Assembly (NCBI RefSeq): GCF_020176715.1
Contig: NZ_JAIVMF010000013.1
Location: 1 to 64,000, forward strand
Direction of reading: 5' to 3'
DNA length: 64,000 nucleotides
Source of the DNA: Stappia stellulata
GTDB taxonomy: Bacteria; Pseudomonadota; Alphaproteobacteria; Rhizobiales; Stappiaceae
Under the pieces are notes generated by a model. It worked only from the letters and a program-made list of their open reading frames with translations, was not told the origin of the DNA and ran no database searches. This document shows, one piece after another, positions 4,319 through 61,412 of the stretch. A program made the translations under genes and the position numbers. The first letter of the stretch is position 1; each line of letters opens with the position of its first letter.

Positions 4319-4395
4319 GGTCCCGTAGCTCAGCAGGATAGAGCATCAGATTCCTAATCTGAGGGTCGCAGGTTCGAATCCTGCCGGGATCACCA
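4319..4395 (+). tRNA. tRNA-Arg (anticodon CCU)
   Basis: A complete cloverleaf can be drawn. The acceptor GGTCCCG (4319-4325) pairs with CGGGATC (4385-4391), with one G-T pair. The D arm begins GCTC, the anticodon stem TCAGA/TCTGA encloses the loop TTCCTAA, and the T arm GCAGG/CCTGC encloses TTCGAAT. The discriminator is A and the CCA end is encoded. The CCT anticodon reads the arginine codon AGG. Confidence 0.95.
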
Positions 4396-52060: not shown

Positions 52061-52455
52061 GTCAGTCGGCTGGACGGCCGCTCCCGCAAGCACGGAAACG
52101 TCGCGGGGGAGGAAAGTCCGGGCTCCACGGAAAAACGGTGCCGGGTAACGCCCGGCGGGGGCGACCCCAGGGAAAGTGCCACAGAAAGCAAACCGCCGGG
52201 GCTCAGGCTCCGGTAAGGGTGAAAGGGTGGGGTAAGAGCCCACCGCGCGACCGGTAACGGAAGCGGCACGGTAAACCCCACCGGGAGCAAAACCGAATAG
52301 GGGCGACGCGGAACCGCAAGGTTCCGGCCCGTTTCCAGGCCAGTCGCCCGGGTAGGTTGCGTGAGGCGTTCGGCAACGAACGTCCCAGATGAATGGTCGT
52401 CGCGTGCGGCGCTTGCGCCGTGCCATACAGAACCCGGCTTAGAGGCCGACTGACA
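52061..52455 (+). ncRNA. rnpB: RNase P RNA (type A)
   Basis: Catalytic RNA of the tRNA 5'-maturation enzyme. P1 pairs GTCAGTCGGC (52061-52070) with GCCGACTGAC (52445-52454). Conserved core elements are all visible: GAGGAAAGTCCGGGCTCC near 52110, CAGGGAAAGTGCCACAGAAA near 52170, the AAACCCCACCGGGAGCAA segment near 52272, GTAGGTTGCG near 52351, and the ACAGAACCCGGCTTA P4 strand near 52427. The size of about 395 bases fits bacterial type A. A T-run at 52464-52468 follows. Confidence 0.96.
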
Positions 52456-52564
52456 CTTGTCCCCTTTTTGCGAATGGTCCGGCGCGCGCGTCCCGCGGCC
52501 CCGTCCCATGCCGCCCCGGTCCAGACCATCCCATGCCGGTCCATGCCTGATGGAAGGCTTTGAC

Positions 52565-54862: not shown

Positions 54863-54872
54863 GGGAGCCGTG

Positions 54873-56588
54873 ATGTCGAAGAGCGATCAGCCCGTCTCCT
54901 TTCTCCAGCGCCGCACGGTGGGGGAGCGTCATGTTCCGCGCGGTCCCTCGACGCGGGCGGTGCGTTCGCGCGTCTATATGGCGATGGCGGTGTTTGCCCT
55001 TGTCTATCTGGCCATCGGCGGCCGCCTGGTCATGCTCGGCTTCAGCGAGGAAGCGGAGACCGCCTCCTATATCTCCGCGCAGGACAGCGTTGCCGCCTCG
55101 CGGCCCGATCTCCTCGACCGCAACGGCCAGATCCTGGCGACCGACATCAAGACCGCCTCGCTCTATGCCGAGCCGCGCAAGATCATCGACGTTGACGAGG
55201 CGCTGGAAGGCATCGCCAGCGTTTTGCCGGAACTCGGCACGGACGCGGTGCGCCGCCGGCTGGCCAGCAATGCGGGTTTCATCTGGCTGAAGCGCGAGCT
55301 CACGCCGCGCCAGCGCACGAAGCTGCATGACCTCGGCATTCCGGGCATCGGCTTCCTTGAGGAAAACAGCCGTTTCTATCCCGGCGGTCCGACCGCAAGC
55401 CACATCGTCGGCTCGGTGAATGTCGACAACAAGGGCATCTCCGGCATGGAGCTTGCCGTCGACAAGGCCTGGCTCGGGGAACTCCAGGACCTGGGGTTCG
55501 CCAGCGACCGCCGGCCGATGGAGGGCGTCAGCCTGTCCGTCGACCTGCGCGTTCAGCATGTGGTGCGCGACGAGCTGGCGAAGGCGCTGGAACGCTACAA
55601 GGCGATCGCCGGCGTCGGCATCGTGCTCGATGTCCGGACCGGCGAGGTGATCGGCATGTCGTCGCTGCCCGACTTCGATCCCAACGACCGGGCGCAGGCG
55701 CTGGAAAAGAACCGGCTCAACCGCGCCACCGGCGGCGTGTTCGAGATGGGGTCGGTGTTCAAGGCTTTCACCGTTGCCATGGCGCTCGACAGCGGCAAGG
55801 TGACGATGGACGACAGTTTCGACGCCACCCGCCCCTTGCGCGTCGGCCGGCGCACGATCAACGACTTCCACGGCAAGCGACGCATTCTCTCGGTCGCGGA
55901 GACCTTCATCTATTCGTCCAACATCGGGACGGCGAAGATGATGCTGGCGGCCGGGGTCGACACCCAGAAGGCCTTCATGGAGCGCATCGGGCTGACGACG
56001 CGCACCGAGACGGACCTTCCGGAGGTGGCGACGCCGCTGCTTCCGCCGAAGTGGAACGAGCTTGCCGCGATGACGATCTCCTTCGGTCACGGCATTTCCG
56101 TCACGCCGATGCAGACGGCGGTGGCAACGGCCGCGCTCGTCAACGGCGGCCGTCTCATTCCCCCGACGTTCACGCCGCGCAGCGAAGCTGAGGCGAACGG
56201 GCTCGCCCAGCAGGTGATCGATCCCAGGACCAGCGAGATCATGCGCTATCTGTTCCGGCTAAACGTGCTGAGCGGATCGGGGCGCCGCGCCGAGGTTCCG
56301 GGCTATGTGGTCGGCGGCAAGACCGGCACGGCGGAGAAGATCGAGAACGGCCGCTATGTGTCCGACAAGCGCCGCAACTCCTTCCTCTCGGCCTTCCCGA
56401 TGGACGATCCGCGCTACGTCGTGCTGGTCGTGCTCGACGAGCCCAAGCCCGAACGCGAGGGCATCGGCGCCACCGCCGGCCTGAACACCGCGCCCACCAC
56501 ATCGGCCATCATTCGCAGGATTGCCCCCACGCTGGGTGTTTTGCCCAAATTCGGAGATAAGACGGAGACCGTTTCAATCGCCTACTGA
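54873..56588 (+). CDS. ftsI: septal peptidoglycan transpeptidase FtsI (PBP3)
   Basis: A monofunctional class B penicillin-binding protein of 571 residues. After a basic cytoplasmic tail comes one membrane helix near 37-55, a pedestal domain with RPDLLDRNGQILATD, and the transpeptidase. The serine is in EMGSVFKAFT (about 296), SxN in YSSNIGTAK (about 348) and KTG in VGGKTGTAEK (about 485). It crosslinks septal wall with FtsW. A GTG one codon upstream is an alternative start; AGGGGAG serves either. Confidence 0.95.
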   Translation: MSKSDQPVSFLQRRTVGERHVPRGPSTRAVRSRVYMAMAVFALVYLAIGGRLVMLGFSEEAETASYISAQDSVAASRPDLLDRNGQILATDIKTASLYAEPRKIIDVDEALEGIASVLPELGTDAVRRRLASNAGFIWLKRELTPRQRTKLHDLGIPGIGFLEENSRFYPGGPTASHIVGSVNVDNKGISGMELAVDKAWLGELQDLGFASDRRPMEGVSLSVDLRVQHVVRDELAKALERYKAIAGVGIVLDVRTGEVIGMSSLPDFDPNDRAQALEKNRLNRATGGVFEMGSVFKAFTVAMALDSGKVTMDDSFDATRPLRVGRRTINDFHGKRRILSVAETFIYSSNIGTAKMMLAAGVDTQKAFMERIGLTTRTETDLPEVATPLLPPKWNELAAMTISFGHGISVTPMQTAVATAALVNGGRLIPPTFTPRSEAEANGLAQQVIDPRTSEIMRYLFRLNVLSGSGRRAEVPGYVVGGKTGTAEKIENGRYVSDKRRNSFLSAFPMDDPRYVVLVVLDEPKPEREGIGATAGLNTAPTTSAIIRRIAPTLGVLPKFGDKTETVSIAY

Positions 56589-56670
56589 CCGGAGCCGGCG
56601 CGAACCGGGGTCGCACCAAAGGTTCGCATCCGCTCCCAACGACGACGCACACCAGATATTGGCGCACAAC

Positions 56671-59600
56671 ATGCTGCTCAAGGACCTTGCCGGCGAACAG
56701 GTGCTCGCCGCACCCGAGTTCGAAACCGAAATCGCCGGATTGTCCGCCGACAGCCGAACGGTCTCGGACGGATTTCTTTTCGCAGCCCTCAAGGGCGCGA
56801 CCAGCGACGGGACCCGCTTCATCGAGGATGCGCGCGCTGCCGGCGCAAGCGCCGTCCTCGTCGGCCAGGACGTTTCCGCGCAGACGCTGGAAAGCCTCGG
56901 CGACGGATTTCCCGTCATCGTCAGCGACGATGCGCGCCGCACGCTGGCGCTGATGGCGGCGCGCTTCCATGCCGACCAGCCCGAAACCGTGGTCGCTGTC
57001 ACCGGAACCAGCGGCAAGACGTCGGTTGCCGTCTTCGCACGGCAGATCTTCGCCGCCGCCGGCCACAAGGCGGCCAGTCTCGGCACCATCGGAACGGTGA
57101 CGAGCGCGGGCGCGAATTACGGCGGCCTGACGACGCCGGATCCGGTCTCGCTTCACCAGACGCTGGCGCGGCTTGCCCATGACGGCATCACCCATGCCGC
57201 GCTGGAGGCCTCCAGCCACGGGCTCGACCAGCGCCGGCTCGACGGCGTGCGCCTCGCGGCCGCCGGCTTCACCAATCTGGGCCGCGACCATCTCGACTAT
57301 CATGCGGATGTCGAGGACTATCTCGCCGCCAAGCTGCGCCTGTTCGACACGCTTCTTCCCGACGGGAGGACCGTCGTTCTGGAACCGGAGGCCCCCTATG
57401 CCGACCGGGTGATGGCGGTTGCACGCGAGCGTGGCCTTCCGCTTTTTACCGTCGGAGACGGGGGCGAAGATCTCGCCCTCAAGGCCATTCGCCACGACGG
57501 TTTCATGCAGGTGCTCAGCCTTCAGACCGAGGACGGCCCCCGCGAGATCCGTCTGCCGCTCGCCGGCCGTTTCCAGGTCTCCAATGCGCTGATCGCGGCG
57601 GGACTTGCGATTGCTGGCGGTGTGACCACCGACGTGGCGCTTGAGGCGCTGGAAAGCCTTGAAGGCGCGCCCGGGCGGCTGGAGCTCGTCGGCGAGAGCG
57701 ACGACGGAGCGCTCGTCTTCGTCGATTACGCGCACAAGCCCGATGCGCTCGACACCGCGCTTGCGGCTCTTCGCCCCTTCACCAAGGGGCGGCTGATTGT
57801 CGTCTTCGGCGCGGGCGGCGACCGCGATGCCGGCAAGCGCCCGCTGATGGGCGCGGCCGCTGCGCGTCAGGCGGACGTGGTGATCGTCACCGACGACAAC
57901 CCGCGCAGCGAGGATCCGGCCGCGATCCGCAGCGCGATCCTCGAGGCGGCCCCTGGCGCGCTGGAAATCGGCGACCGGCGCGATGCGATCGAGGCGGCGG
58001 TCGGCATGTTGCAGGCGGGCGATGTGCTGTGCATCGCCGGCAAGGGCCATGAGCCGGGGCAGATCGTCGGCGACGAGGTGCTGCCCTTTTCCGACCATCA
58101 GGTCGCGCGCACAGCCCTTGCCGCCATTGCCGAGAGCGACCTGTTCGCCGCCTCCGAAGACGATGCCGGAGGGTTCGAACTGGATCTCGCGGCCCTTCTG
58201 GAGGACGAGGCGCCGGCCGGGAATACGCCGGAGGTGGACGAGGCGGCGGAAGGCACTCCGGACGTGGACGGCGTGTCGCTGGACGACCAACTGGCTGCGG
58301 CCCTTCTCGATGAGTTGGGCGGCGATGCCGGCCGGACCGATGCCGATGAACCTGCTGAATCTGATGTCGCTGAAGCCGAGGAAGCCGACGACGGGATCTT
58401 CGCGGATGCCGACGAGGGGCCGGACAGCGACGCAACGGCCGGAGGCGATGGCGAGGCAGACGCTGGCGAAGGCGAAGACGACGCGTTGTTTGCCGATCGC
58501 GACGACGCGGTCATGGCCGACGCGCTGACGACGGACGGCCAAGACGACATCGACACCGAAGAGACGGTCGAAGACGCCGGCGAACCGGATCAGGCGGAAG
58601 CCGAGACCGAGGCAGATGAAACCGAGCTCTCCGCGACCCTTGCCGAAAAGACCGAGGACGGGGAAGCGGACGCGGACGAAGCGGACCTTCGCGAGGGGGA
58701 CGTTGACGCTCCTGTCAAACCGGCCGACGCTGACGCGGATGATGCCACCGGGGAAAACGCCGAGGAAGAGCCCGACGCGTCGCGTGAGTTCGCCGATGCG
58801 GTACTCCCTGCGGCTGCTGCCGCGGCCGCGGCGGCCGTTGCCAAGGGGAGCGAGCCGCAGACGTTCGAACCTCTTCCCGAGCCGGACGACAGTCGTCCGC
58901 TTTGGACGCTGGACGAGATGGTCGCGGCGACCGGCGGCCGGGCCGAGGGTGTGGAGGCCGGCGCGGCGATTTCCGGCCTCTCCATCGACAGCCGCACGAT
59001 CCAGCCCGGCGAGGCGTTCGTTGCGATTGCCGGTGAGCGGTTCGACGGTCACGATTTTGCCGGCGCCGCCCTTGAGGCCGGTGCGACCCTTGCCCTCGTG
59101 TCCGCGGCCCGGCGCGCCGACCTGCCCAAGGACGGGCGCTATCTGATCGTCGCGGACGCGCTTGAGGGCTTGCGCGATCTGGCGCGGGCATCGCGGGCGC
59201 GCAGCCGGGCGCGGATCGTCGCCGTCACCGGCTCGGTCGGCAAGACCAGCACCAAGGACATGCTGAAACTGGCGCTGGATGCCTCCGGCAAGACCCATGC
59301 GCCCGTCGCCTCCTTCAACAATCACTGGGGCGTGCCGCTGACGCTGGCGCGCATGCCGGCAGATTGCGCTTTCGGCGTCTTCGAGATCGGCATGAACCAT
59401 GCCGGCGAGATCACGCCGCTGGTCCGGATGGTGCGTCCGCATGTCGCCGTCATCACCACGGTCGCGGCGGTTCATCTGGAGTTCTTCGGCTCCGTGGAGC
59501 GGATCGCCCAGGCCAAGGGCGAGATCTTTCTCGGGCTCGAGCCTGGCGGGCTTGCGCTCCTCAACCGCGACAACGACCAGTTCGATCTCCTGACCTATCT

Positions 59601-60318
59601 GGCAAAGACCGCCGGCGTGCGCCGTATCGCCACCTTCGGGCGCGAGGGGCCGGCCGACGCCCAGGCGGAACGCGTGTCCGCGCAGGTCGCCTGCAGCTCG
59701 ATTTCCGGCCATATCTTCGACCAGCCGATCACCTACAAGGTCGGTGCGCCGGGTCAGCATCTGGTCACCAACAGCCTCGCCGTGCTCGCGGCCGTTGCGG
59801 AGCTTGGCGGCGACCTGGCGCTCGCCGGTCTGGCGCTTGCGAATTTCCGCGCACCCAAGGGCCGCGGCGCGCAGATCGCCCTGCGATTGCCGGAGGGCTC
59901 GGCCACGGTGATCGACGAAAGCTACAATGCCAATCCCGCCTCGGTGCGCGCAGCGCTTTCCCTCCTGAAGGAAACCCCGATCTCGCGGCCAGGGCGGCGC
60001 ATTGCCGTACTGGGCGACATGCTCGAGCTCGGCGAGGCGGAAGGCCGGCTGCATGCGGATCTCATCGGACCGGTCACGGAAAGCGAGGCGGACCTCGTCT
60101 ATTGCGTCGGCGAACGCATGCACGAGCTCTGGGACCTCTTGCCGAAGCACCTGCGCGGCGCCTATTCCGAAGAGGCGGCGAGCCTGAGGCCGCTGCTTCT
60201 GGAAGACGTGCGCCCCGGCGACGTCATCATGATCAAGGGATCTCTCGGCACCCGCATGGGGCCGCTGGTCGAGGCGCTGAAGCGCGAATTTCCCGTCGAG
60301 GACGACGGAGCCGAATAG
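56671..60318 (+). CDS. murE-murF: bifunctional MurE-MurF ligase with long acidic linker
   Basis: One 1215-residue polypeptide carries two successive ligases of peptidoglycan precursor synthesis. Residues 1-490 are MurE: substrate loop [12 protein letters not shown] loop TGTSGKTS, and DDNPRSEDP, the motif specific for meso-diaminopimelate. Residues 742-1215 are Mur[15 protein letters not shown] loop [19 protein letters not shown] and [10 protein letters not shown]. They are joined by about 251 residues (58141-58893) that are low in complexity, very rich in Asp, Glu and Ala, and end in a poly-Ala run. In most bacteria the two are separate, adjacent genes; MurE-MurF fusions are known in Bordetella. 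There is no stop or start signal at the junction. The ATG lies 82 bases after ftsI and has only a weak ribosome site. Confidence 0.95.
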
Positions 60319-60326
60319 GACGCCCG

Positions 60327-61412
60327 ATGCTGTATTTTCTCGTCGAATTCGCCGACCAGTTCTCCGCGCTTAACGTGTTCCGCTACATCACGTTCCGCAC
60401 CGGCGGCGCGATCATGACGGCGCTGCTGTTCATCTTCCTGTTCGGGCCGATGATCATCAACTCGCTGCGCACCCGCCAGGGGCATGGTCAGCCGATCCGC
60501 GCCGACGGGCCGCAGAGCCATCTGCTGACCAAGAAGGGCACGCCGACGATGGGCGGCCTGATGATCCTGTCGGGCATGATCGTGGCGACCCTGCTCTGGG
60601 CCAATCTGCTCAATCCCTATACCTGGATCGTGCTGGGCGTGACCGTCGGCTTCGGCCTCATCGGCTTCTACGACGACTTCCTGAAGGTCGCCAAGGCCTC
60701 GCACAAGGGCTTCAGCGGGCGCATGCGTCTCGGTCTGGAATTCCTGATCGCCGGCACTGCCGCCTGGTGCGTCACCTTTCTGGAAGGCGATGTCTACGGC
60801 ACCTCCATCGGGTTCCCGTTCTTCAAGGACCTGGCGATCAATCTCGGGATCTTCTTCATTCCGTTTGCGGCCTTCGTCGTGGTCGGTGCGGGCAACGCGG
60901 TCAATCTGACCGACGGGCTGGACGGGTTGGCGATTGTGCCCGTGATGATCGCCTCCGCCTCCTTCGGCCTGATCGCCTATCTCACCGGCAACGCGGTGTT
61001 CTCCGACTACCTGCAGATCCATCACGTGGCGGGCGCGGGCGAACTGGCGGTGCTGTGCGGCGCGGTGATCGGGGCGGGGCTCGGCTTCCTGTGGTTCAAC
61101 GCGCCGCCTGCGGCGATCTTCATGGGCGACACCGGGTCGCTTGCGCTCGGCGGCATGCTGGGCGCCATCGCGGTCGCAACCAAGCACGAGATCGTGCTGG
61201 CAATCATCGGCGGGCTCTTCGTGCTGGAGGCCGTGTCGGTGATCGTGCAGGTCGCCTCCTTCAAGCTGACGGGCAAGCGCGTCTTCAAGATGGCGCCGAT
61301 CCACCATCATTTCGAGCATCTCGGCTGGACCGAAAGCCAGGTGGTGATCCGCTTCTGGATCATCGCCGTGGTTTTGGCGCTGGTCGGGCTGGCCACGCTG
61401 AAGCTGAGGTGA
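60327..61412 (+). CDS. mraY: phospho-N-acetylmuramoyl-pentapeptide transferase
   Basis: An integral membrane enzyme of 361 residues with ten helices that makes lipid I from UDP-MurNAc-pentapeptide and undecaprenyl phosphate. Catalytic motifs are [34 protein letters not shown] and the HIS loop [13 protein letters not shown]. It starts eight bases after murE-murF. It uses the product of MurF directly. Confidence 0.97.

Follow-up and report, generated by a model that had tools for sequence, protein, structure and literature searches.

The gene and its two ligase domains

The stretch analysed here, called the window below, comprises 64,000 nucleotides of Stappia stellulata (assembly GCF_020176715.1, contig NZ_JAIVMF010000013.1, positions 1 to 64,000). 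The subject of this text is one of its genes, which encodes MurE and MurF, two ligases of peptidoglycan precursor synthesis, as a single protein with a long acidic linker between them. The gene occupies positions 56671-60318 (+) as one open frame of 1215 codons, running from the ATG at 56671 to the TAG at 60316-60318 with zero internal stops. Its parts are the following:

56671..58137 (+): MurE domain, residues 1-489, UDP-MurNAc-dipeptide:meso-diaminopimelate (meso-DAP) ligase; above the cut-off of NCBIfam NF001124, DNPR at residue 409
58138..58875 (+): acidic linker, predicted to be disordered, residues 490-735 (246 residues); from tblastn boundaries, predicted local distance difference test (pLDDT) values, charge-hydropathy score and Cys count
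58276..58317 (+): short acidic amphipathic motif, residues 536-549; AlphaFold2 helix, [DE][DE]xPhixxPhiPhi
58444..58484 (+): two-copy 21-base in-frame tandem repeat within the linker, from a repeat scan
58810..58837 (+): poly-Ala tract of the linker (GCG/GCC repeats), residues 714-722
58876..60315 (+): MurF domain, residues 736-1215, D-Ala-D-Ala adding ligase; above the cut-off of NF010693, P loop at residue 854, followed by the stop at 60316-60318

Both ligases are recognised by their family models. Pfam finds Mur_ligase, Mur_ligase_M and Mur_ligase_C in two stretches each, and the protein exceeds the NCBIfam cut-offs of the equivalog models for MurE (NF001124, 732 bits against 476) and MurF (NF010693, 740.5 bits against 544). 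The model of bifunctional MurE/MurF proteins, NF008896 (PRK11929), gives 843.7 bits in two stretches, below its cut-off of 1023. The protein shares the MurE/MurF architecture, but falls outside the membership of this model.

Intact motifs are present in MurE (the ATP loop GTSGKTS at 112, the lysine region AAKLRLF at 219, and DNPR) and in MurF (the P loop GSVGKTSTK, and DESYNANP at 1082); their roles, as ATP loops, as the region of a carbamylated lysine in AAKLRLF, and those of DNPR and DESYNANP, are presumed here. The columns of the P-loop GK(T/S), the lysine of AAK and NPR are invariant across 38 fused proteins. A whole-protein search of the genome (E <=0.001) returned the fusion itself and one weak match farther along (E 2.6e-4), so that no separate murE or murF was found. 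By sequence, then, no MurE or MurF was found in this genome other than those joined in this polypeptide.

Composition and predicted structure of the linker

The linker contains 86 Asp and Glu (35%), 23% Ala and 3% Lys plus Arg; its net charge is -79, and it has no Cys. This acidity exceeds the local background, since the 200-residue peak of Asp plus Glu is 39% in MurE-MurF and 22% in the best (15% in the median) of 35 long frames of the window, which were picked mechanically and evidently exclude the MurE-MurF frame, perhaps displaced by a shadow frame of the opposite strand. An acidic trend across the whole cell-wall cluster was considered and rejected: in three genomes, the neighbouring frames of the cluster reach at most 25% Asp plus Glu in 100 residues. 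Within the cluster, the acidity appears confined to MurE-MurF.

AlphaFold2, run on residues 16-1215 with 38 fused sequences, gave a mean pLDDT of 80.6, with both ligases well predicted and values below 50 over residues 495-536 and 549-729. The predicted template modelling score (pTM) of 0.51 means that no firm relative placement of MurE and MurF is predicted. The charge-hydropathy score of the window linker is -0.28, and it is negative, which is the disordered side, in all 30 of the 30 linkers longer than 100 residues. By its low predicted order, high net charge and low hydropathy, the linker is thus predicted to be disordered. One helix stands out in the model, at residues 537-549, with a pLDDT of 60 in the first ten-residue block; apart from it, the linker is predicted to be helical only where the last MurE helix runs out, over five residues at 506-510, and in the poly-Ala tract. 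Repeats are modest here, being limited to the 21-base repeat and the poly-Ala tract listed above.

A first-pass annotation of the window had described one 1215-residue MurE-MurF protein, each ligase with its own ATP loop and substrate motifs intact, joined by an acidic linker of about 250 residues without a fold signature. This description stands in every part.

One chain or two

It could be supposed that the fusion is an artefact of an overlooked stop or frameshift, which the first-pass annotation had itself allowed for, or that MurF is translated separately from an internal start. This is barely conceivable. No stop or frameshift lies between the domains, and an artefact of this kind is excluded by 30 further contiguous fused genes from three genus groups, making 31 such frames; every tandem array in their linkers has a period divisible by three. 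The ATG at residue 615, 121 codons upstream, is the final in-frame start ahead of MurF in the window; no further ATG, GTG or TTG follows in frame until residue 749, inside MurF, and none of the six in-frame starts of the linker has a Shine-Dalgarno-like site. Some relatives, for example G013, do have start codons with GAGG-like letters upstream near MurF, as chance gives in GAG-rich DNA (the inspection covered 12 of the 31 genomes), and a disordered linker could undergo proteolysis. No promoter- or terminator-like sites were found in 58000-59000.

The opposite strand carries an open frame of 1213 codons (56509-60150, -) over nearly the whole MurE-MurF gene. It is taken to be a shadow frame that arises from GC-rich codons.

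Distribution of MurE-MurF fusions

The family survey covered 87 genomes, in which g1 is Stappia, g3 its sister group, g6 Pseudovibrio, g4 Pannonibacter, g7 Roseibium and g2 Breoghania. The fusion is present in 33 of them: all 14 of g1, all 3 of g3 and all 16 of g6. In 31 of the 33 the gene is contiguous in one frame; in G005 and G030 it is split at contig ends within a (Glu-Ala)n run, each half being open to the break. The MurE contig of G030 (L186) was flagged through a cross-match, but was read as a contig-end piece. The remaining 54 genomes are unfused: each has one or more listed rows, none with an open frame longer than 637 codons, and ten of these genomes (G014-G016, G020-G022, G024, G025, G045 and G085) were read as separate genes.

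In the order survey (297 genomes, 293 with a MurE match), 26 of the 293 are fused. Seven of these belong to Stappia's family and have long linkers; in the other 19 (f11, f18, f41 and f42) the linker measures 0-22 residues. All rows whose open frame exceeds 900 codons were read, and genes cut at contig ends would escape this rule. The class survey (142 genomes, 130 matched; G392, with an open frame of 778, was left out of the reading) contains three fusions outside the family, G443, G460 and G476, with linkers of 5, 5 and 18 residues. In the phylum sample (150 genomes, 141 matched, some overlapping the earlier surveys) G625 is fused through 17 residues; the fusion of G166 was already in the order count, and G604 was uncallable, its best MurF match having fallen on its MurE. 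A Rhizobiaceae locus, L081, is fused through 4 residues.

Other long open frames were unfused on reading (G161, G120, G225, G330, G252, G314, G343, G297, G332, G241, G346, G134, G098, G274, G305, G185, G535, G545, G566, G552, G570 and G606). G421, whose frame stops at 803 residues and whose MurF match ends at residue 260, was not counted.

Among the surveyed genomes, linkers of more than 100 residues were seen only in g1, g3 and g6. Fusion is thus the rule in these three neighbouring groups, and near-linkerless fusions occur elsewhere in the order. The comparison of fusions across the order, which the first-pass annotation had called for, qualifies its view that such a linker looks unusual in an alphaproteobacterium: the length of the linker is unusual beside the 0-22 residues seen outside, but the fusion itself is routine in the three groups.

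Short-linker fusions occur in 11 of 11 sampled f11 genomes and 5 of 5 sampled f41 genomes (e.g., L167, L168 and L160), where they are probably fixed. In a tree of the MurE and MurF domains (61 rows), they are separate from the fusions of Stappia and Pseudovibrio.

Origin of the fusion

Of 102 unfused loci, in which some genomes appear twice, 93 have murF in frame +2 with respect to murE and a spacing of -7 to 41 bases from one domain match to the other. Fusion therefore usually needs a change of frame besides the loss of a stop. In the 61-row domain tree, Stappia and g3 group with an unfused clade of Roseibium, Pannonibacter and g5 with a bootstrap of 99; a second model on 39 rows gives a support of 83/69. 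A constraint that unites the fused rows is not rejected (p 0.133), and a tree of 14 neighbour frames of the cell-wall cluster in 20 genomes separates one origin from two no better (p 0.439), with frames that are mechanical and may include shadow frames. The long-linker fusion may have had a single origin or two, the latter with Pseudovibrio and Stappia plus g3 as the separate lineages.

Variation of the linker among relatives

Across the 31 contiguous genes, the linker measures 17-692 residues with a median of 247, and 30 of the 31 span 118-692. The range is 192-376 in g1 and g3; Pseudovibrio has linkers of 17, 118, 124 and 164 residues, then of 222-295, and one of 692. The fraction of Asp plus Glu lies between 0.23 and 0.40 and the net charge between -6 and -234. 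Pooled by group, Asp plus Glu amounts to 34% in g1 and g3 and 32% in Pseudovibrio, and Lys plus Arg to 2.8% and 4.2%, compared to 8.4-10.5% in the domains. Cys is absent from 8040 linker residues, and occurs 214 times in 29941 domain residues. In 12 pairs of relatives, the ratio of nonsynonymous to synonymous substitution rates (dN/dS) is 0.10-0.44 for the linker and 0.02-0.11 for the domains; linker alignments of these pairs have 6-94 gap columns, while 23 of 24 domain comparisons have none. Strong acidity, low Lys/Arg and zero Cys persist in these 31 genes, as does predicted disorder in the 30 linkers of more than 100 residues, while sequence and length drift.

Linker DNA is also rich in tandem arrays, with 46 in 24.1 kb against 13 in 89.8 kb of domain DNA; codon-shuffled linkers gave 6-19 in five rounds. 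All 46 have periods that are multiples of three, because the coding frame demands it. The unit of the hexamer runs varies from species to species: GAAGCC x93 in G029, GAGCCC x20 in G013, GCAGAC x17 in G010 and GAAGCA x11 in G008. In G029 (L127), the 93 units encode (Glu-Ala)93 within an essential gene, and this run is likely to be a hypermutable length marker.

A linker of this kind might be no more than tolerated growth, a junction lengthened by slippage after the fusion and kept as harmless, its acidity being simply what stays soluble. The range of 17-692 residues without a fixed sequence, the long hexanucleotide runs of species-specific unit and the relaxed dN/dS of most pairs are what such growth would leave. 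A further argument comes from G031 (Pseudovibrio exalbescens DSM 16456) and G041: their MurE parts are 80% identical and their MurF parts 85%, while their linkers have 17 and 164 residues. If the G031 assembly is right, one species is viable with a short linker. However, none of the 12 pairs reaches a dN/dS of 0.45; net charge, depletion of Lys/Arg and absence of Cys are kept across widely differing linkers; and 30 of 31 linkers exceed 115 residues, against 0-22 in the fusions read outside the family. Growth that is merely tolerated is accordingly a doubtful explanation.

The first-pass annotation had also offered the linker as a flexible tether that passes UDP-MurNAc-tripeptide from MurE to MurF, which catalyse consecutive steps. 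Lengthening works against such hand-over: in an ideal-chain estimate with assumed constants, the effective concentration falls from ~15 mM with 20 residues to 0.17 mM with 246 and 0.03 mM with 692. UDP-MurNAc-tripeptide is anionic, and by general chemistry the like-charged linker and substrate repel each other. Since a longer linker lowers the local concentration and both are anionic, hand-over is very improbable as the reason for the length. The idea is raised in PMC6420597 as well, where the fitted model of the Bordetella fusion is elongated, with active sites ~35 A apart.

A recurrent motif and possible docking

The motif [DE][DE]xPhixxPhiPhi occurs in 12 of 20 representative linkers, against a shuffle mean of 3.4, and none of 1000 shuffles was as high. 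Of its 16 copies, 15 lie at linker positions 18-75, near MurE, and all the MurE and MurF domains of the same representatives hold 1 copy. In the window, it coincides with the AlphaFold2 helix of the linker. Enrichment is smaller in the subsets: 6 of 12 in g3 and Pseudovibrio (shuffle 1.9; 4 of 1000 as high) and 4 of 10 in Pseudovibrio alone (shuffle 1.7; 65 of 1000 as high). An earlier motif, [LIVF]D[LFI]..[LIVM] within 40 residues of MurE, is found in 8 of 19 representatives (0.36 shuffled; 0 of 2000 as high), and was set aside as not universal, since 5 of the 8 Stappia representatives and both of those from g3 lack it.

In eight Stappia representatives, conserved islands are confined to the two linker ends; six related Pseudovibrio have several, with a mean identity of 85% across the MurF junction. 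In these six core species (L033-L040), the last ~40 linker residues are conserved, the 85% island including the start of MurF, while the middle drifts. The conserved segment before MurF is a candidate binding peptide in Pseudovibrio.

The motif and the Pseudovibrio islands would be expected if short linker motifs bound MurG, MraY, MreB or another partner at the membrane or in the cytoskeleton, with the remainder as spacer, and the Bordetella MurE-MurF does interact with MurG (PMC6420597). That fusion binds MurG with a linker of ~20 residues, so a long linker is not needed for the interaction. The restriction of islands to the two ends in Stappia also tells against docking, and the motif was framed post hoc from the sequences of related rows, which makes it a lead. 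A linker whose main role is docking is quite unlikely.

A proposed polyanionic spacer

The explanation that we hold to be slightly more probable than not has the linker as a disordered, polyanionic spacer that gained its length by repeat slippage under selection for bulk properties, and that may carry a docking motif. Under this explanation, the fusion would have MurE and MurF made in a 1:1 ratio, and the expanded spacer would keep the two ligases sterically and electrostatically independent, each free to bind its own partners or to oligomerise. Selection would act on bulk charge and disorder, with slippage supplying the length. More tentatively, some partner may dock on the short, acidic and amphipathic helix that recurs close to MurE.

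Several observations weigh against the spacer. Weak constraint and repeats also fit tolerated growth. In two very close Pseudovibrio pairs the linker dN/dS is 0.10 and 0.14, near domain values, which suggests sequence-specific constraint there beyond bulk properties. No tandem array is present in 12 of the 31 linkers. The linker has 17 residues in G031 and ~120 in G033 and G040, so great length is not required everywhere. The motif is absent in 8 of the 20 representatives (G009, G013, G029, G031, G032, G033, G040 and G041), and hydrophobic clustering in the linkers was not found beyond that of shuffles (1 of 30 at p <0.05).

A more specific form of the spacer explanation is unlikely as a whole. 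In it, in-frame hexanucleotide runs would make the MurE-MurF distance fast-evolving and strain-variable, held only to being long, acidic and disordered, while a docking helix at the MurE end would recruit a partner and concentrate precursor synthesis, in an arrangement that possibly arose twice (in Pseudovibrio and in Stappia plus g3).

Comparison with known systems

The MurE-MurF of Bordetella pertussis, the precedent named by the first-pass annotation, has 945 residues and a linker of ~20; PMC6420597 also names Pseudovibrio spp., alphaproteobacteria of the same family as Stappia, among organisms with a fused MurE-MurF. Bordetella is therefore not the only precedent in print. The two proteins share the order MurE-then-MurF in one chain, flexible and elongated in Bordetella, and differ in size, with 945 residues and a ~20-residue linker there and 1215 and 246 in Stappia (PMC6420597). 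The fusions found outside the family (the 19 genomes of f11, f18, f41 and f42, L081, G443, G460, G476 and G625) have the same order in one frame, but their linkers of 0-22 residues lack a long acidic region. A solved chain, 8f5d, 'Multifunctional fusion protein' (803 aa), matches both the MurE and the MurF parts; its MurF match starts 6 residues past its MurE match, without a long linker as matched. Alphaproteobacterial FtsZ offers a comparison of working principle only: according to PMC13170164 it is a division protein with a long disordered internal region, but it is unrelated and no homology is claimed.

The MurE-MurF fusion is thus already known, and the long acidic linker is the new part. 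This linker is not named in the titles and beginnings of abstracts of the MurE-MurF and Pseudovibrio papers that the literature searches listed; a 2023 PNAS paper on the MurE-MurF complex may treat it. A literature search for Stappia with MurF found no paper.

Surroundings of the gene

The neighbours of the gene, which we take to be FtsI-like and MraY-like, and the RNA genes of the window are as follows:

54870..56588 (+): upstream neighbour, presumably an FtsI-like transpeptidase, ending 82 bases before MurE-MurF
60327..61412 (+): downstream neighbour, presumably MraY-like, with its ATG 8 bases past the MurE-MurF stop
52062-52457 (+): RNase P RNA class A (Rfam RF00010, 301 bits), upstream of a presumably mraZ-like frame
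4319-4392 (+): tRNA gene (Rfam RF00005, 71 bits)

The mechanical minus-strand frames over the RNase P RNA are probably not genes.

Significance

Mur ligases are essential to bacteria and serve as targets of antibacterials; whether they act as a complex is still debated. One family here provides a natural series of linker lengths, from 17 to 692 residues, beside relatives with separate genes. With such a series and unfused relatives, proximity, stoichiometry and partner recruitment become directly testable against each other. The gene would also exemplify an essential bacterial enzyme in which a disordered region is maintained through its composition and has probably gained its length from tandem repeats.

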